DNA of 43,594 bases, from IMG/VR virus record IMGVR_UViG_3300021197_000558, positions 1 through 43,594 of that record. One strand, 5' to 3'. Numbering within the stretch: position 1 is the stretch's first letter; every line of letters begins with the position of its first letter. The DNA comes from a virus. The translations under genes and the position numbers were made by a program. Shown here one piece after another: positions 31,929-40,725 of the stretch. The notes under the pieces were generated by a model, which worked only from the letters and a program-made list of their open reading frames with translations, was not told the origin of the DNA and searched no databases.

Positions 31929-32558
31929 ATGAATACTAATCTTACTATCCGCACCGAAGCCCAAATCACTGAGCTTAAACTGTCTGAAATTACCGCTATC
32001 AACAATGAGTTCGCAGTTGCTAACGGTACTAAAGAAACCAAGCGTTTCGGCACTAAGCCAGCGGCTATCAAAAAGTGTCTAGCAAATCAGGCGGCTTATG
32101 TTGAACAGCGCGACCAATACCTAGCAGACAATAAAGATCCAGTTGAAGACTTTATCGAACAAGGCGGTGAGGTTACACAATGTCCTCCGCAAAAGAACCC
32201 TAAGCAAAAAGCACCGACTTCTAAAAGTGCCTTGTTATCTACTAAGGGTTCCAAAGCCAGCGGCGAACGCAAGCCAGCCAATTCCTTCTCAATGAATATC
32301 GGTGGTTCACGTATTGTATATGACATCCCGACTACTTTGGTGTCAGTTGTTAAAACTACCGATAAAACTGAATCAATGGTAGGTATGCTCATCCAGGCAA
32401 TTGAAGCCAGTTTGGAACCGACAGTTGAAGAAGTGGCCGAGCATGTTGTCACCAACTATAAGCGTCCTAAAAGTGCTAAAGAAGTTGACCGCTCGTTCGT
32501 AATCCGCAAGATTAAACGTGCTGTTCAAAAAGGCTTCTTAAAATTAGAAACTGCTTAA
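31929..32558 (+). CDS. Putative DNA-binding protein with C-terminal winged helix
   Basis: 209 residues. N-terminal domain (residues 12-55, ELKLSEITAINNEFAVANGT, KETKRFGTKPAAIKKCLANQ) has the L-x-x-x-x-A-I-x-N-x-F/KRF pattern of phage nucleoid-type proteins. A Lys/Ser/Pro linker follows, and residues 148-207 (SMVGMLIQAIEASLEPTVEE, VAEHVVTNYKRPKSAKEVDR, IRKIKRAVQKGFLKLE) look like a winged helix. It shares this plan with the next gene. A regulator or chromosome-organising role is possible. Confidence 0.68.
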   Translation: MNTNLTIRTEAQITELKLSEITAINNEFAVANGTKETKRFGTKPAAIKKCLANQAAYVEQRDQYLADNKDPVEDFIEQGGEVTQCPPQKNPKQKAPTSKSALLSTKGSKASGERKPANSFSMNIGGSRIVYDIPTTLVSVVKTTDKTESMVGMLIQAIEASLEPTVEEVAEHVVTNYKRPKSAKEVDRSFVIRKIKRAVQKGFLKLETA

Positions 32559-32566
32559 TTTACAAT

Positions 32567-32596
32567 AGGCTCTGGGAAACTGGAGCCTTAATTTTG
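32567..32596 (+). terminator. Terminator with GAAA loop
   Basis: AGGCTCTGG (32567-32575) and CTGGAGCCT (32580-32588) pair over 9 bp with two G-U pairs and a GAAA tetraloop; TAATTTT follows. It ends the message of the winged-helix gene. Confidence 0.78.
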
Positions 32597-32605
32597 GAGA
32601 TTATT

Positions 32606-33259
32606 ATGTATTACGCTATAGACTTTGACACAAGGTCAGTTGAATCAAAAAGCACCGACGGTGAGTTACTTGCCGCTTATGTTCTTGATAACAAGTTGAC
32701 AGCCGCTATCGCCTTAGTTGATAATGAGGACGAGCTTTGTTTACAACTAAGTCTAAACGAAATGCAAGAGCTCTCCAATAATTTAGGCGGTAATAAGCAG
32801 TACGAAGGTGATGAACAGGCTGCTGAATGGTGCTGGCGATTACTTGAACAAAGTCAAGACGATATACCTAATTTCACAAAGGCGTTAGGTAAGCGTTTAT
32901 TAAAAGAAGCCGATAAGCGTAACCGTGATGTCCCAGAGGCTATGGGCGGACCTAAGAGCCGTAAAAATACAGGCGATGTAAATGCCGAAGCCAGTACCAC
33001 AAAGCCAGCCAGGAAGCGTAGAACGTCTTCTAAACCTGCTGGTAAACGACCAACAGATGCAACAGTGCTAACCATTGGTAAACAACCTAAAGAAAGCACT
33101 GTGCTCTTTAAAGTATGGCAAACCGTTGAGGATAACCTCGGCGATATGTCAATAGGTGATATCGTGGTAGAATGCGAGCTAGATGAGCAGCAATGCCGCA
33201 AACAGATATCACGCTGTATCCGTAAAGAAGTCTTAATTAAAGTAGAGGAAGAGTTATGA
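32606..33259 (+). CDS. Putative DNA-binding protein with C-terminal winged helix, second copy
   Basis: 217 residues from the ATG at 32606 (TTTGGAG 6-7 nt upstream). N-terminus MYYAIDFDTRSVESKSTDGE, a central basic, Ala/Pro/Lys-rich linker (TTKPARKRRTSSKPAGKRP), and a C-terminal winged-helix-like part (STVLFKVWQTVEDNLGDMSI, then EQQCRKQISRCIRKEVLIK). Same plan as the previous gene, with an unrelated N-terminal domain. It is coupled to the kinase gene by an ATGA overlap (33256-33259), so it heads the DNA-modification operon. Confidence 0.65.
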   Translation: MYYAIDFDTRSVESKSTDGELLAAYVLDNKLTAAIALVDNEDELCLQLSLNEMQELSNNLGGNKQYEGDEQAAEWCWRLLEQSQDDIPNFTKALGKRLLKEADKRNRDVPEAMGGPKSRKNTGDVNAEASTTKPARKRRTSSKPAGKRPTDATVLTIGKQPKESTVLFKVWQTVEDNLGDMSIGDIVVECELDEQQCRKQISRCIRKEVLIKVEEEL

Positions 33260-33828
33260 TATTAAATATTCGGGGGACAAGTGGTTCAGGTAAAACCACT
33301 CTTATCCGTAAATTCTTTGAGCTGTGTGACAGCAAAGAAACCATTCAACCAGCCGACAGCAAGAAACCAAAGGGTTATAAATGCTCTTACAAAGGTGAGA
33401 CTATATTTGTTGTTGGGTCGTACGAAAATGTCTGTGGTGGTTGCGATACCGTATCCACGCAAGATGAAATTGAACAGTTGATTGAAGACTATGCGTTTGA
33501 CGGTCATGTACTGTTTGAAGGCTTGTTCATATCGCATATCTACGGACGTTATGCTGAGATGGCTAAGCGCGATCCAGATAACTTTGTCTTTATCATGTTG
33601 GAAACCCCGTTTGATACCTGTATGGATCATATTAGAAAGCGTCGTGAAGCTTCGGGTAAATCAACAGAACTTAAAGACAGCGTCTTTAACAATGCTCGTA
33701 AGACCTATGAGTCAACCTACCGCATTCGTAAGAAGCTAACAGCGGATAACCTTACTTGGGAAGAGTTACCATTGGAAAATCGCTTTCAGTTGTTTGAAGA
33801 GCTTCTAGACTTTTATTTGGGAGTGTGA
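33256..33828 (+). CDS. P-loop nucleotide/DNA-base kinase (5-hmdU DNA kinase candidate)
   Basis: 190 residues. Walker A is GTSGSGKTT (residues 7-15) and the acidic Walker B-like strand is HVLFEGLFIS (about 84-93). A Cys-rich signature GSYENVCGGCDTVSTQDEIE (54-73) and a LID-like basic region (CMDHIRKRREASGKS) complete a thymidylate-kinase-like fold. In phages with hypermodified thymine, a kinase like this, encoded next to the HMUDK-helical/aGPT-PPlase gene, phosphorylates 5-hydroxymethyl-dU in DNA. Context (next gene and TS-like gene) makes that the leading reading; a dNMP kinase is the alternative. Confidence 0.78.
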   Translation: MILNIRGTSGSGKTTLIRKFFELCDSKETIQPADSKKPKGYKCSYKGETIFVVGSYENVCGGCDTVSTQDEIEQLIEDYAFDGHVLFEGLFISHIYGRYAEMAKRDPDNFVFIMLETPFDTCMDHIRKRREASGKSTELKDSVFNNARKTYESTYRIRKKLTADNLTWEELPLENRFQLFEELLDFYLGV

Positions 33829-33829
33829 T

Positions 33830-34678
33830 ATGCTTACTCCAAATCAAGAACAACTTATTTACTGGATAACTGAACGCGAGTCTATCCGTAAGAAGAAAGA
33901 AGCTGGTCTTCCTGCACCTTGGTCAGATAACCCTGTGATGCAGGTGACCTATTTTTGCAATGTGAACCGTGAAGACGATAAAGTCACCAAGTGGATACGC
34001 CAGAACTGGACTTACCCTTGTGACACATTGGGTGAGGAGTGTGCTGAGTATTATGATTTCGCTATGATAGTAGCTCGTATCTTTAATCTACCTTCTACGC
34101 TTGAAGAGCTTCAGCAACCGATAGAAACTTACCATTGGTTAGAACATGCGGAAGAGGTATTTCATGACCGCAAGGCACGAGGCGATAATATATGGAACGG
34201 AGCATATATTATCTCAACGAATGGTAAGAAAATGGATAAAGCTTCTTATTGTTTGATACTTCTAGAAAAACTTGCAAAGTCACATAAAATCACGCATAAT
34301 TGCTCTACGCTTAAAGAAGCTCATCAAGCACTTATGAAGGTTGAAGGCTTGGCTAGTTTCCTAGCTGCTCAGGTGGTGGCTGATCTCAAGAATACTGTAG
34401 GTCATCCACTAAATAAGGCTGAAGACTGGTTCACATTTAGTGCTCCAGGTCCAGGTAGTCTTAGAGGGCTTAGTTGGTTCTTTGAAGAAAAGGTATCAGC
34501 AAAGAATTATCATGCGAAGATTAAAGAGGCTTACGAAATATTAGAGTTCGAGTTACCAGAAGAAATACTTGAATTCTTATGTTTCCAAAACCTTCAAAAT
34601 TGTTTCTGTGAGTATGATAAGTTTATGCGGGTAACAAACGGAACAGGTCGTTCAAAACGTAAATATAAAGGTAACTAA
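33830..34678 (+). CDS. DNA base hypermodification protein (HMUDK-helical / aGPT-PPlase-like)
   Basis: 282 residues. The N-terminus YWITERESIRKKKEAGLPAP, WSDNPVMQVTYFCNVNREDD and KVTKWIRQNW is the signature of the family annotated 5-hmdU DNA kinase helical domain / putative DNA base hypermodification protein (PF18723; related to alpha-glutamyl/putrescinyl thymidine pyrophosphorylases). The residues W, E-R, P-W, F-x-N-V-x-R-E-x-D-K-V-T line up as in known members. HhH-like patterns occur near KVEGLASFLAAQVVADLKNT, and GPGSLRGLSWFF ends the core. In the M6/ViI pathway such enzymes replace the pyrophosphate on hmdU with an amine or amino acid. The acceptor here is unknown. Confidence 0.85.
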   Translation: MLTPNQEQLIYWITERESIRKKKEAGLPAPWSDNPVMQVTYFCNVNREDDKVTKWIRQNWTYPCDTLGEECAEYYDFAMIVARIFNLPSTLEELQQPIETYHWLEHAEEVFHDRKARGDNIWNGAYIISTNGKKMDKASYCLILLEKLAKSHKITHNCSTLKEAHQALMKVEGLASFLAAQVVADLKNTVGHPLNKAEDWFTFSAPGPGSLRGLSWFFEEKVSAKNYHAKIKEAYEILEFELPEEILEFLCFQNLQNCFCEYDKFMRVTNGTGRSKRKYKGN

Positions 34679-34679
34679 A

Positions 34680-35699
34680 ATGAAAGTATTAAATGTAAGA
34701 AACGCGATTGAAGCATTGGGTCAGGGTATCCATCTAATCAAACATGGCGGTGAGCACATTGACAGCCGAGCAGGTATAACAATTGAAGTTCCGTCACCAG
34801 TAGCCACAACATACAGTAATCCATGGGAACGTGTGCTGATTAGTAAGGTTCGTGACGCTAACCCATTCTTTCACTTGATGGAAGCTATGTGGATTCTAGC
34901 TGGTCGTGAGGATGTTAAATTCCTTACTGAATTCAATAAGCGTATGGGCGATTATAGCGATGATGGTCAAGTGTTCAATGCGCCTTATGGTTATCGCCTG
35001 CGGAACGGTAATTGTAACGCTCAGTTGGATCAACTGTCTGAAGTTATAAAACTACTAGAGCGTGATCCAAACAGTCGCCAAGCAGTCTGTCAAATTTGGG
35101 ATGAAGATGACCTTGTTCATACCACTAAGGACAAGGCTTGCAATATGTCTATAGTATTCCGCATCCGTAATGGTAAGCTCTGTATGACGGTCTATAACCG
35201 TTCTAACGATATGATTTGGGGTGCTTACGGTGCTAACGTGGTTCAGTTTAGTATTATCCAGGAATACGTCGCAGCTCATCTGGGATTACCCCTTGGTGAA
35301 TATACTCAGGTTAGTAACTCTTACCATATTTACACTGAAGATGCTGGCGGTGCTGTATGGGATCGCTTAAAAGATAATTATGACGGTTACTCAGCTATTT
35401 ATGATGAAGCTATTCATAACACTGTTTATATGTTGCCGCATGACATACCAGCGTTTGAACATGATATCCGTCAGTTCTTTAACGCTTATGACCAATTCGG
35501 TATTGAAGAACTCGGTGAACTTCGTTGCTGGCAATCACAGTATTTCAATCAGTTGATCATGCCTGTACTTTGCATCTACTTGATTCACAAGCAACACGGT
35601 CCAGAACAGGCTTTGAAGTACACTCACACCATCTTAGCAGATGATTGGAAGTTGGCGTGTGAAGATTGGCTTACTAACCGCATGGAGGCTCGTAAATAA
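34680..35699 (+). CDS. Thymidylate-synthase-like dUMP hydroxymethylase
   Basis: 339 residues. The TS fold is clear: catalytic C154 in DKACNMSIVFRIRNGKL, phosphate-binding R174-S175 and D177 in VYNRSNDMIWG, N186 in GAYGANVVQFS, H216 and Y218 in VSNSYHIY. C-to-R (20) and N-to-H (30) distances equal those in E. coli ThyA (C146/R166, N177/H207). N186 is kept, the residue that reads uracil; T4 dCMP hydroxymethylase has Asp there. Asn155 replaces the His that follows the catalytic Cys in ThyA. These features and the neighbouring modification genes favour 5-hydroxymethyl-dUMP formation rather than dTMP, but plain thymidylate synthase cannot be excluded. Confidence 0.85.
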   Translation: MKVLNVRNAIEALGQGIHLIKHGGEHIDSRAGITIEVPSPVATTYSNPWERVLISKVRDANPFFHLMEAMWILAGREDVKFLTEFNKRMGDYSDDGQVFNAPYGYRLRNGNCNAQLDQLSEVIKLLERDPNSRQAVCQIWDEDDLVHTTKDKACNMSIVFRIRNGKLCMTVYNRSNDMIWGAYGANVVQFSIIQEYVAAHLGLPLGEYTQVSNSYHIYTEDAGGAVWDRLKDNYDGYSAIYDEAIHNTVYMLPHDIPAFEHDIRQFFNAYDQFGIEELGELRCWQSQYFNQLIMPVLCIYLIHKQHGPEQALKYTHTILADDWKLACEDWLTNRMEARK

Positions 35700-36202
35700 T
35701 GAATATTCGCAATATACTTCATAGCGGTGACGTGGTTCGCTTTCATAACCATGTTGGTATTGATAAACAGAAGACCTCAGAACACCAGTGGGGCGTCGCA
35801 CTTATTGTTGAGCATATTTACCCAGAAGGTTCCAAAGCATTGCTTCTAGCCGCTCTTACGCACGATGCAGCGGAATACTATATGGGTGATATTCCTGCAC
35901 CTGTTAAGTGGGATAACCCTGAGCTGAAAGCAATGCTTCAGCAAATGGAACGTAAATGGGAAGAGCGTAATGGTGTAGATTTTGACTTGCATCATGATGA
36001 GCACGTTGTTCTTAAAATGGGTGATACCCTTGAGGGAATGTGGTTCTGTGTTCATCAAGTACGTCTAGGTCACATTAACGCCAAACGTCCGTTCCGTAAA
36101 TGGCGTACATTCTTTCACGATACCTTTTCAAGTTATCAGGAAAAGTATCCAAAGGCGTTTGAACTTTACACCAATCTAATCCAAGAAATGGAGGAGCTAT
36201 AA
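35699..36202 (+). CDS. HD-domain nucleotidase (YfbR-like)
   Basis: 167 residues. H29 (TSEHQWGVALIV), H55-D56 (ALTHDAAEYYMGDIPAPVK) and D109 (VLKMGDTLEGMWF) form the HD metal site; E59 and D64 fit the dNMP 5'-nucleotidase YfbR family. Such enzymes dephosphorylate deoxynucleoside monophosphates and could remove host dTMP or shape the pool for the modified nucleotide. The ATG is joined to the stop of the TS-like gene (TAATG) with GGAGG upstream, so they are co-translated. Confidence 0.85.
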   Translation: MNIRNILHSGDVVRFHNHVGIDKQKTSEHQWGVALIVEHIYPEGSKALLLAALTHDAAEYYMGDIPAPVKWDNPELKAMLQQMERKWEERNGVDFDLHHDEHVVLKMGDTLEGMWFCVHQVRLGHINAKRPFRKWRTFFHDTFSSYQEKYPKAFELYTNLIQEMEEL

Positions 36203-36945
36203 TGGGTACTTATATGAATCCTGTCAGCGATATTCAAACCGAAGATATTTTGGATAGTTTGAATTATGATGAAGAAACAGGTATTTTCACTTGGAAGAAA
36301 TCACGTGGAAACCAAAAAGCAGGTTCGCAAGCTGGTACTATCGACGGACATGGCTATATCTGTATTCAGATAAATCGTAAACCTCATAGAGCTCATAATA
36401 TAGCTTGGAGGTTTGTCAATGGTGTTTGGCCTAAATATTCTATTGATCATATTAACCGTGAACGAACTGACAATCGTATTATTAATCTTCGTGATATACC
36501 TTTCAATGAAAACTTGGCTAATTCCCCTAGAAGTAAAGGCGGTAAAATAGATGCTATCCAGATAGGCGGTGATCATTATAAGAATCACGCTTACCAACAT
36601 TGGAACATGGTTTGTGATACCGATCTACCTTATATTCTTGGATGTGCTACTAAATATGTCAGCCGATGGGAAAATAAAAATGGTATTGAAGACCTTCGTA
36701 AATCTATTCATTATATTGAAAAGGCCGATCAAGAAGTTATTTTCGCTGAAGATAGTAAAGAATTCCGTTCCTACTATAGATTATTCTTAACTCAATTTGG
36801 TGAGTTTGAACAACAGGTTTTAGAATTTATCTACGAAGGGTTATATCCTGAAGCTGTGGAACTCATTCGTGACCGTATAGACGAAGCTGAGTGCGGTCCG
36901 ACTGCAAACTATGTTGATCCTGACAAAAATTACATCCGAGGTTAA
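36202..36945 (+). CDS. HNH endonuclease fused to DUF3310
   Basis: 247 residues. Residues 25-110 form an HNH homing-type nuclease: WKKSRGNQKAGSQAGTIDGH, YICIQINRKPHRAHNIAWRF, then SIDHINRERTDNRIINLRDI with the DH...N...N pattern. Residues 115-175 are DUF3310 (DAIQIGGDHYKNHAYQHWNM, YILGCATKYVSRWENKNGIE, DLRKSIHYIEKA), usually a stand-alone protein beside phage nucleotide-metabolism genes. The two parts follow without a gap in one frame. The homing-type nuclease appears to have invaded or fused to the DUF3310 gene. Confidence 0.83.
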   Translation: MGTYMNPVSDIQTEDILDSLNYDEETGIFTWKKSRGNQKAGSQAGTIDGHGYICIQINRKPHRAHNIAWRFVNGVWPKYSIDHINRERTDNRIINLRDIPFNENLANSPRSKGGKIDAIQIGGDHYKNHAYQHWNMVCDTDLPYILGCATKYVSRWENKNGIEDLRKSIHYIEKADQEVIFAEDSKEFRSYYRLFLTQFGEFEQQVLEFIYEGLYPEAVELIRDRIDEAECGPTANYVDPDKNYIRG

Positions 36946-36946
36946 T

Positions 36947-37492
36947 ATGTCACTCTTATCTTATAATTCACTAGTCAGTCTTGTTGAGGCTGGTATTATC
37001 ACCGCTCCAATGGAACATATTAGCGGAGCCAGTATTGATATCACTGTAGGTGATGATATCCTTATTGAGAAACCTATGTCGCAACAATATGTCGTTGACT
37101 TACAGGCCAAACAATCACTGGAATTACGTCGCCATCGTATCAACGAAAAAGGTTTCCGTCTTTATCCTGGTCAGTTCATACTGGCTACCAGTAATGAAAC
37201 TTTCAACTTACCAAATACAGTCGCGGCTGAGTATAAGTTGAAGAGTTCATTAGCTCGTTCAGGGCTACAACACATGCTCGCCGGATGGTGTGATCCTGGT
37301 TGGAATAATTCCAAGTTGACACTTGAACTCAAGAACGTAACCCAGAATCATATTCTCCTAATTAAACCTGGAATGAAGATAGGTCAGATGGTGTTCTGGG
37401 AGTGCGAACCTGTTCCTGAAGAACACAGTTACGCTGTTAAAGGTCAATATAACGATCAAGATACTGTAACTGAGAATAAGGGTGTGCGATAA
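36947..37492 (+). CDS. dcd: dCTP deaminase
   Basis: 181 residues from the ATG at 36947 (CGAGGT upstream; an in-frame TTG lies earlier). S100, R104 and E127 (KSSLARSGL and LTLELKNVT) reproduce the S111-R115-E138 spacing of E. coli Dcd. ISGASIDITVGDDILIE opens the trimer fold and GMKIGQMVFWECEPVP closes it. Forming dUTP from dCTP supplies uracil nucleotides for the TS-like enzyme. dUTPase activity (bifunctional) cannot be ruled out, because dUTP must be lowered to dUMP somewhere. Confidence 0.87.
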   Translation: MSLLSYNSLVSLVEAGIITAPMEHISGASIDITVGDDILIEKPMSQQYVVDLQAKQSLELRRHRINEKGFRLYPGQFILATSNETFNLPNTVAAEYKLKSSLARSGLQHMLAGWCDPGWNNSKLTLELKNVTQNHILLIKPGMKIGQMVFWECEPVPEEHSYAVKGQYNDQDTVTENKGVR

Positions 37493-37498
37493 TGGTTA

Positions 37499-37524
37499 GG
37501 CGGCTTCGGTCGCCTTTGTTCTTT
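37499..37524 (+). terminator. Rho-independent terminator after dCTP deaminase
   Basis: GGCGGC (37499-37504), UUCG loop, GTCGCC (37509-37514), then TTTGTTCTTT. It separates the modification operon from the polymerase gene; the polymerase start lies only about 10 nt beyond. Confidence 0.88.
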
Positions 37525-37534
37525 GGAGCTTAAT

Positions 37535-39409
37535 ATGAAATACGATAAATTGGTAACATGCGATATAGAGTGTTTTCGCAACTATCTCTTGATAATGTTC
37601 AGGAGAGTGATAGATGGTAAAGTTATTTACTTTGAAAAGTTTAATGATTCACCATTGAATATTAAGAACGTTCTACATATTCTTAATAAATATACAATCA
37701 TAACCTTCAACGGTAACAAGTATGATATCGTTATGATTGAGGCGGCTTGTGCTGGCTTCAATAACGAGACGTTGAAGAAAATAAACAACCTGATAATTCC
37801 TTCGGATGAAGATAAAGCTAAAGGTGTGAAAGGGTTGCAACCTTGGCAAGTTAGAAAACAATGTGGTTTCGCTGCGTTGAAAATAGATCATATAGATTTA
37901 ATAGAAGTAGCACCTCTAAAAGCAAGTCTTAAAATCTATGCTGGTAGAATACACGCTCCCCGTCTTAAAGACCTACCTATCCATCATGATGCTACCATAG
38001 CTGATTCTGACAGACCTGCATTGATAGAATATTGTGGTATAGATAACGAGGATACTGAGCTACTGTTTAAACAGTTAGAATCCGAATTAGATCTACGTTC
38101 AAATATGAGTGATGAGTATGGTGTTGATGTTCGTTCCAAGTCAGATGCTCAAATTGCCGAAGCGGTTATTAAGAAGGAGATGGAAGAAAAATATGGATTC
38201 ATTCCTAAGCGACCTAAAGTTGCTGTCGGTACTGAATATTATTACCAAGGTCCTGACAACCTAGTATTTGAAAGTGAAATACTTCAAGATGTATTTAGGC
38301 AATATACGACACGTCCATTCGTAGTTGGGAATAGCGGTCATGTTGAATTTAACTTTGAAATGGTTGAATCTGACCGTAAAAAGTCAGGTAAGAACAAAGG
38401 TGAATTTCCTGACAATAAAAAGAAGCTTCAATTTGTTATTGGTAATACCAAATATACTGTCGGCACTGGTGGTCTTCATAGTTGTGAAAAATCAACACGT
38501 CATACTAATGAAGAAGGTATATTGCGTGATTACGATGTGGCTAGTTATTACCCGCGAATAATTTTGAATAATAGGTTATTTCCAAAACATATAGGTGAAC
38601 CATTCCTAGACATTTATAACTCTATTGTTGAGCGACGTTTGAAAGCTAAGCGTGAAGGAAACAAGGTAGTTAATGAAAGCCTTAAAATTACTATTAACGG
38701 CTCCTTCGGTAAGTTTGGTTCCAAGTGGTCTTGTTTATATTCCCCTGATCTTATGATGCAGGTAACAGTGACAGGTCAGCTCAGCTTACTGATGTTGATT
38801 GAACGTTTGGAAGCAGCAGGTATTTCTGTCGTCAGTGCGAATACTGATGGTATCGTTACTAAGATGACTAAAGACCAAGAAGCTACCGCTCAGTCTATTG
38901 TTAGTGATTGGGAATTTGAAACCGATTATGAAATGGAAGGTGCTGACTATATAAGCCTTAACAGTCGCGATGTTAATAACTATATAGCTATTAAAGAAAA
39001 GAGCACTAAAGGTAAGGGAGCTTACTCTGATCAGCGCGAGCATTTCTACAGCCTTAGAAGTAACCCTAGTAATGATATTTGTACGGAGGCCGCTAAAGCG
39101 TTTCTACAGACTGGTAAGCCTGTTGAAGAAACCATCCGGGCATGTAGTGACATTACAAAGTTTTTAACGCTTAGAACCGTGAATGGCGGTGCTGTAAAGG
39201 ACGGGGAAATTATTGGTAAGGCTATCCGCTGGTATTATGGGGCTTATGAGCTTGACGCTATATACTATAATACAAATGGAAACAAGGTTCCTAAGTCAGA
39301 TAATGGTGTTCCACTCATGGATTTACCAAAGGAGTTTCCTGATGACGTAGATTTCCCTTGGTACATTAACGAAGCGAAACGCATATTAAAAGATACAGGG
39401 TGGAAATAG
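37535..39409 (+). CDS. Family B DNA polymerase
   Basis: 624 residues from the ATG at 37535 (TTTGGAG upstream). Exonuclease: D10-E12 (CDIECF), N59-D64 (TFNGNKYD), and Y165/D169/D172 (YCGIDNEDTE). Polymerase motif A DYDVASYYPR (D333), motif B LKITINGSFGKFG (383-394), motif C ANTDGI (D437), where the first of the two usual acidic residues is Asn. The enzyme is shorter than host PolB and lacks a protein-priming TPR insertion as far as I can see. With the PrimPol-SF3 protein and ssDNA-binding protein it forms a largely self-sufficient replisome. Confidence 0.93.
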   Translation: MKYDKLVTCDIECFRNYLLIMFRRVIDGKVIYFEKFNDSPLNIKNVLHILNKYTIITFNGNKYDIVMIEAACAGFNNETLKKINNLIIPSDEDKAKGVKGLQPWQVRKQCGFAALKIDHIDLIEVAPLKASLKIYAGRIHAPRLKDLPIHHDATIADSDRPALIEYCGIDNEDTELLFKQLESELDLRSNMSDEYGVDVRSKSDAQIAEAVIKKEMEEKYGFIPKRPKVAVGTEYYYQGPDNLVFESEILQDVFRQYTTRPFVVGNSGHVEFNFEMVESDRKKSGKNKGEFPDNKKKLQFVIGNTKYTVGTGGLHSCEKSTRHTNEEGILRDYDVASYYPRIILNNRLFPKHIGEPFLDIYNSIVERRLKAKREGNKVVNESLKITINGSFGKFGSKWSCLYSPDLMMQVTVTGQLSLLMLIERLEAAGISVVSANTDGIVTKMTKDQEATAQSIVSDWEFETDYEMEGADYISLNSRDVNNYIAIKEKSTKGKGAYSDQREHFYSLRSNPSNDICTEAAKAFLQTGKPVEETIRACSDITKFLTLRTVNGGAVKDGEIIGKAIRWYYGAYELDAIYYNTNGNKVPKSDNGVPLMDLPKEFPDDVDFPWYINEAKRILKDTGWK

Positions 39410-40308: not shown

Positions 40309-40725
40309 ATGACACGCATAAACCTAGTAGATCCATCTCAGCTGACAGATAAGCATCTTATGGCTGAGTATCGTGAACTCCCTCGTATATTTACCGCTGT
40401 TCTAAAACTGCAAGAGCAGGGTAAAAGCCCATCTGACGTAGATATCCCTGATCAATATGTACTTGGAAAGGGTCATGTTAAGTTCTTCTACAATAAAATA
40501 GGCTGGTTACGTTTGCGTTATGAACGTATTCGTAACGAGCTAGTTATGTCTAGAGGTTACGATTTAGATAAGTCTTTATGGCGTTCAGTAACCCAGAATT
40601 CATATAATATAACCGCTGATTGGAATACAACATATACGCCGACACCAGAAGAAATATATCTTAATATGGTTAGACTATGTAAGCGTTCCAAATTGGCTAA
40701 TGTTCTTAAGGAATTACATGAGTAA
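40309..40725 (+). CDS. denV: Pyrimidine-dimer DNA glycosylase/AP lyase (T4 endonuclease V-like)
   Basis: 138 residues, the same size as T4 DenV (138). The start MTRINLVDPSQLTDKHLMAE and the following YRELPRIF are near-identical in pattern to T4: T2 (catalytic N-terminal Thr after Met removal), H16, E20, R22, E23 and R26 are all present. YVLGKGHVKFFYNKIGWLRL also follows T4. It excises UV-induced pyrimidine dimers. The C-terminus differs from T4 and lacks its WYKYYGKAIYA end. Confidence 0.9.
   Translation: MTRINLVDPSQLTDKHLMAEYRELPRIFTAVLKLQEQGKSPSDVDIPDQYVLGKGHVKFFYNKIGWLRLRYERIRNELVMSRGYDLDKSLWRSVTQNSYNITADWNTTYTPTPEEIYLNMVRLCKRSKLANVLKELHE

Follow-up and report, generated by a model that had tools for sequence, protein, structure and literature searches.

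The window examined here is the entire 43,594-nucleotide viral record IMGVR_UViG_3300021197_000558, and the system in question is a cassette of six plus-strand open reading frames (ORFs) at 33256–37492, which abut or overlap their neighbours in the ORF listing of the window. The first two genes encode a P-loop protein predicted to be a 5-hydroxymethyldeoxyuridine (hmdU) DNA kinase (KIN; 190 aa, 33256..33828) and a protein of the HMUDK_hel family (HEL; 282 aa, 33830..34678). These are followed by a predicted dUMP hydroxymethylase resembling thymidylate synthase (TS-like enzyme; 339 aa, 34680..35699), an HD-domain protein, an HNH-DUF3310 fusion and a dCTP deaminase. A previous sequence-only reading had proposed six co-directional, mostly overlapping genes here, and the ORFs do lie at these positions on the plus strand. 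Based on the evidence below, we favor, with moderate confidence, a reading in which hmdU is synthesised, built into DNA and phosphorylated there, and in which 5-phosphomethyldeoxyuridine (5-PmdU) is the likely end product.

The TS-like enzyme matches PF00303 (85.8 bits) and is 41% identical over 270 aa to SPO1 gp29, an established dUMP hydroxymethylase. Its best match in the PDB is the CMP hydroxymethylase MilA at 99 bits, compared with 60 bits for the best thymidylate synthase. The catalytic residue is Cys154, followed by Asn155 at the position where E. coli thymidylate synthase (TS) has His; the uracil-reading residue is Asn186, and there is no Trp at the position of TS W80. All 83 of 83 related loci retain the catalytic Cys and the Asn that reads uracil, and none of them has a Trp at the aligned position. 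In T4 gp42, however, a Trp does align with W80, so we rejected the lack of this residue as a mark common to all hydroxymethylases; its absence supports, and does not prove, hydroxymethylation. Both Asn residues named in the sequence-only reading are confirmed, and the hmdU synthesis it proposed is supported by the homology to the SPO1 enzyme.

KIN matches PF18748 (HMUDK_HMUD1) with 27.9 bits against a cut-off of 27, as well as AAA_33, which bears out the P-loop kinase claimed previously by a score just over the cut-off. The protein keeps the Walker A motif GTSGSGKT together with GGCDT, EG and RR motifs, and G7, T8, G10, G12, K13, G61, G62, D64, E88, G89, R129 and R130 are invariant among 12 sequences. 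The AlphaFold2 (AF2) model has a mean predicted local distance difference test (pLDDT) score of 89.3 and adopts a P-loop kinase fold, for which polynucleotide, adenylate, gluconate and thymidylate kinases are tied at a Z of about 13; a sequence search of the PDB with KIN returned no match. Moreover, KIN shares 35% identity with its counterpart in the Pseudomonas phages RaNi and PaMx11. PDB entry 8z2n names 5-PmdU as the substrate of the PaMx11 glycinyltransferase, which makes such a kinase the likely source of 5-PmdU. The predicted activity of KIN is phosphorylation of hmdU in DNA at the 5-hydroxymethyl group. In PHROG 800 and many RefSeq phage records, hmdU DNA kinases carry the label "terminase small subunit", including the window gene at 33256-33828, M6 gp54, Ab18 ORF12 and YuA gp13; this label is apparently a propagated misannotation.

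HEL matches PF18723, named as the helical domain of 5-hmdU DNA kinase, with 140.8 bits (cut-off 25; 7e-41) over profile positions 5–276 of 281, and this is the sole family matched. In Bacillus phage SBSphiC, an SP10-like phage taken as representative, a single 636-aa protein contains both PF18748 (residues 35–193) and PF18723 (residues 312–597), whereas KIN and HEL are separate genes in M6, ViI, Ab18, Sonora and the window. The AF2 model of HEL (pLDDT 92.3) was compared with solved structures using VIA. The closest fold is the PaMx11 5-PmdU glycinyltransferase (8z2n; Z 12.3, 214 residues, root-mean-square deviation (rmsd) 3.6), followed by the queuine-salvage DUF2419 fold (Z about 10) and helix-hairpin-helix (HhH-GPD) DNA glycosylases such as Ogg, Mag1 and EndoIII (Z 8 to 10), although Z values below 13 are common for helical models. 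Plain Foldseek gave no significant match (best E 0.27), a PDB sequence search gave no match, and comparison with the profile of the amino acid:DNA transferase (ADDT) family was not significant; the relation between HEL and ADDT therefore rests on structure, and at a moderate level. Because the predicted fold may be DNA-glycosylase-like, HEL is probably a base-flipping partner that would present flipped hmdU to swappable writer enzymes. The previous reading had placed the 282-aa protein in an HMUDK-helical/aGPT-PPlase-like family; the HMM check against hypermodification families, which it had suggested, returned PF18723 and upholds the first part, while the second, a group-transferring enzyme, gives way to the kinase's helical partner.

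The window lacks the known genes that would process a phosphorylated base further. ADDT (PF18724), the family whose enzymes replace the phosphate on the modified base, was found in neither the window nor eight relatives, while the same search recovered it in 7 of 7 control phages (M6, ViI, phiW-14, Lydia, Ab18, RaNi and Sonora). Among the Pfam matches listed for the window ORFs, the remaining 36 included, there was no pyridoxal phosphate (PLP), radical SAM, glycosyltransferase, acetyltransferase or flavin adenine dinucleotide (FAD) tailoring gene, in agreement with the earlier report of no PLP or radical SAM gene. Furthermore, phages with KIN and without ADDT recur, as no ADDT was detected in the KIN-bearing records L038 (38.8 kb), L098 (43.8 kb) and L100 (38.7 kb). 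With neither an amino acid:DNA transferase nor a tailoring enzyme at hand, the pathway probably ends at the phosphorylated base.

In relatives of the window, the slot of KIN is occupied by other writers. KIN is absent from L004, L005, L006 and L008. In its place, L004, L006 and L008 carry a TET-associated glycosyltransferase (TAGT), itself a decorating enzyme, with a radical SAM/SPASM gene after it (L004:1015-2818, L006:8201-10004 and L008:8201-10004), and L005 shows only the end of TAGT, at the contig edge; in L007, TAGT is accompanied by a small ORF. These relatives keep the order HEL, hydroxymethylase, HD, DUF3310, polymerase, and the TAGT and radical SAM/SPASM pair suggests a sugar-bearing, further altered hmdU. 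The window HEL belongs to a well-supported clade with eight members, of which five have TAGT and three have KIN. A broader scan of viral contigs yielded at least 504 relatives of HEL. Among 72 loci made non-redundant by a simple ungapped comparison, the writer within 2.5 kb upstream of HEL is TAGT in 42, TAGT plus radical SAM in 5 (47 with TAGT), radical SAM in 4, KIN in 9 and none of these in 12, and a hydroxymethylase lies within 4 kb downstream in 68. TAGT labels were assigned by BLAST against seeds and are in many cases also backed by Pfam or PHROG, and the KIN-only labels of L040, L092 and L101 come from short contigs. On a quick HEL tree, the KIN-only state requires at least six changes. 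HMUDK_hel could be viewed, tentatively, as a general base-flipping module that presents hmdU to exchangeable writers, in which KIN alone, as in the window phage, would yield 5-PmdU as a finished base and TAGT, across many uncultured phages, would yield glycosylated hmdU like base J.

Other arrangements were observed at HEL loci. Directly downstream of HEL on a 59.8-kb viral contig lies a weakly sulfotransferase-like gene (L085:10825-11607; Sulfotransfer_3, under the cut-off), a possible writer of a sulfated base. Four writer-slot proteins of 317–382 aa have no Pfam or PHROG match (L065:8839-9987, L086:9027-9983, L102:8986-9987 and L105:104-1057), and their N-termini, judged by eye only, resemble GT-B glycosyltransferases. 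The order HEL-TAGT-HD-HMase (hydroxymethylase) occurs at L090:9950-13282 and L095:9950-13606, on viral contigs of 71 and 110 kb. In addition, the two ends of the 46.7-kb contig IMGVR_UViG_3300038566_000026, the source of L002 and L010, overlap at only 86–88% identity, so this record probably joins two strains.

From the gene content, homologies, predicted folds, lack of ADDT and exchange of writers, we infer the following route. The dCTP deaminase would provide dU nucleotide, the TS-like enzyme would convert dUMP to 5-hmdUMP, and the nucleotide pool would be adjusted by the HD phosphatase together with the gp1.7-like domain of the fifth gene. During DNA synthesis by the phage polymerase, hmdU would be inserted opposite A. 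After replication, HEL would flip and present the base, KIN would phosphorylate hmdU in DNA to 5-PmdU, and the phosphorylated base would probably shield the DNA from restriction. Kinase treatment alone made SP8 hmdU DNA resistant at several restriction sites containing TG or TC (PMC7653180); as several restriction enzymes are blocked, the phosphate alone could protect. The sequence-only reading had expected hmdU followed by an unknown group, with a final base either simple or new. Homology supports a phosphate added by a 5-hmdU DNA kinase, the absence of ADDT speaks against a further group, and the simple option fits, most likely as phospho-hmdU itself.

Several points weigh against a phosphorylated end product. 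The PF18748 score of KIN barely clears the threshold, and KIN of the relative L003 falls under it (25.4 bits). The window record is classed as linear, although two markers spanning the record ends lie 4501 bases apart in the window and 4372 in L007, which suggests that the record misses little and that the genome is nearly complete. A phosphorylated hmU template allowed transcription by E. coli RNA polymerase at 37% of normal (PMC6457204), which would be a cost for this phage because no RNA polymerase gene was found among the window ORFs scanned. Finally, an unrecognised transferase among the family-less ORFs, or a host enzyme, may act on the base, and the transferase-like fold of HEL means that HEL itself might transfer a group. 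Replacement of the phosphate by such a phage or host enzyme, that is, the full hypermodification put forward in the sequence-only reading, would fit with the fact that all characterised HEL-bearing phages searched also have ADDT and that several window ORFs, e.g., 31929-32558 and 32594-33259, have no family match. However, ADDT is missing from nine lineage genomes and from L038, L098 and L100, and the 32594-33259 gene is shared with TAGT relatives and so is not specific to the kinase type; we regard this outcome as unlikely, yet the most serious of the rivals.

The idea that HEL acts as the transferase on phospho-hmdU draws on its proximity to 8z2n and on related viral models that include ADDT proteins. 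It is opposed by the lack of a significant profile match to ADDT, by the presence of HEL alongside ADDT in M6, ViI and phiW-14, and by the predominance of glycosyltransferases next to HEL in kinase-less phages, where no phosphate would arise. We rejected the 282-aa protein as a group transferase, given that PF18723 denotes the helical partner of the kinase, with which it forms a single protein in SBSphiC, and consider this explanation highly improbable. Nearly as improbable, in our estimate, is a nucleotide (hmdUMP) kinase role for the P-loop protein, with plain hmdU in the virion DNA like that of SPO1. The fold of KIN does tie with thymidylate and adenylate kinases and its family score is weak, but a KIN homologue is fused to HEL in SBSphiC, SPO1 has hmdU only and no HEL, and a gp1.7-like nucleotide kinase domain is already encoded downstream. 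Membership of the TS superfamily would allow the TS-like enzyme to make ordinary dTMP, leaving the DNA unmodified; with Asn in place of His after the catalytic Cys, no W80 Trp and top similarity to SPO1 gp29 and MilA, we rejected it as an ordinary thymidylate synthase and give this explanation almost no weight. The phosphorylation of hmdU in DNA, with 5-PmdU as end product, remains the reading we prefer.

The other cassette genes are consistent with nucleotide metabolism. The HD-domain protein (YfbR-like 5'-deoxynucleotidase, 167 aa, 35699..36202, +; PF12917, 6e-11, 42.7 bits) has the same gene position in M6 (gp59) and the relatives and is a probable nucleotide-pool enzyme. The dCTP deaminase (193 aa, 36911..37492, +) matches PF22769 (9e-35, 120.5 bits) and TIGR02274 (107 bits, cut-off 92.8) and is predicted from these matches to supply the dUTP/dUMP precursor; both assignments agree with those made earlier. 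The intervening gene (247 aa, 36202..36945, +) combines HNH (PF13392, HNH_3; residues ~4–113) with a DUF3310 / T7 gp1.7-like nucleotide-kinase domain (PF11753; residues ~114–247) and has PHROG "nucleotide kinase" matches. Both halves of the fusion recognised previously were matched, with the correction that relatives L002, L003, L004 and L006 have the ~134-aa DUF3310 part alone; hence, the HNH part is strain-specific and looks like a recent homing-type acquisition. Immediately after the cassette, a PolB-like DNA polymerase (37523..39409, +; phrog_1252, 4e-185; weak PF03175 match) presumably incorporates hmdU. Directly upstream of the writer slot, a conserved gene of unknown function (32594..33259, +) is shared with L004, L006 and L008, three of the relatives that bear TAGT.

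According to Pfam and PHROG scans, the window genome is myovirus-like. The minus strand encodes sheath, baseplate, portal, head protein and terminase as well as primase and ligase, and the plus strand encodes exonuclease, single-stranded DNA-binding protein (SSB), the cassette, polymerase and SNF2 helicase; a tail-fibre gene is truncated by the record start. Near the cassette lies a pyrimidine-dimer DNA glycosylase of the T4 endonuclease V family (40309-40725; PF03013, 7e-14). A DNA-level search of cultured phages with the window matched the dCTP deaminase only. In a scan of metagenome-assembled genomes (MAGs), HEL was found in just five contigs from five unrelated groups, which point to no one host.

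The exchange of writers around a constant core of HEL and hydroxymethylase is, in our opinion, the most interesting outcome. It gives a testable role to the large and poorly understood HMUDK_hel family and leads us to expect a class of phages with glycosyl-hmdU, nearly all of them seen so far in metagenomes. A phosphate on the base has been described from in vitro reactions and as an intermediate, but no account of it as a natural finished DNA modification was found in the open-access papers searched. If the reading is true, 5-PmdU would represent hypermodified thymine in its simplest possible form, strongly acidic and negatively charged.

Compared with known systems, the cassette is, as judged from its genes, the hmdU-and-kinase half of an established pathway, with the transferase half missing. 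The window shares with the pathway of M6, Abidjanvirus Ab18 and PaMx11 the P-loop kinase, HMUDK_hel, dUMP hydroxymethylase, HD phosphatase, gp1.7-like gene, DNA polymerase and deoxycytidine deaminase. The order KIN-HEL-HMase-HD is identical to that of Ab18 and close to that of M6. In contrast, M6 has ADDT, PLP and radical SAM genes, and Ab18 carries, just upstream of its kinase, genes for ADDT, FAD and acetyltransferase proteins, none of which occur in the window. With PaMx11 gp46/PUGT (8z2n), HEL shares a similar predicted fold, without a PF18724 match or significant similarity to the ADDT profile. SPO1, the DNA of which contains plain hmdU, has the homologous hydroxymethylase gp29 (41% identity), but it lacks HMUDK_hel, the PF18748 kinase and ADDT, the first two of which are present in the window. 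As for decoration by TAGT, this gene holds the place of the kinase in the same operon of sister phages, whereas the window has the kinase. TAGT of T6-like Durham phages has been linked to glucosylated cytosine (PMC13390438); the hydroxymethylase of HEL loci, in contrast, reads uracil.

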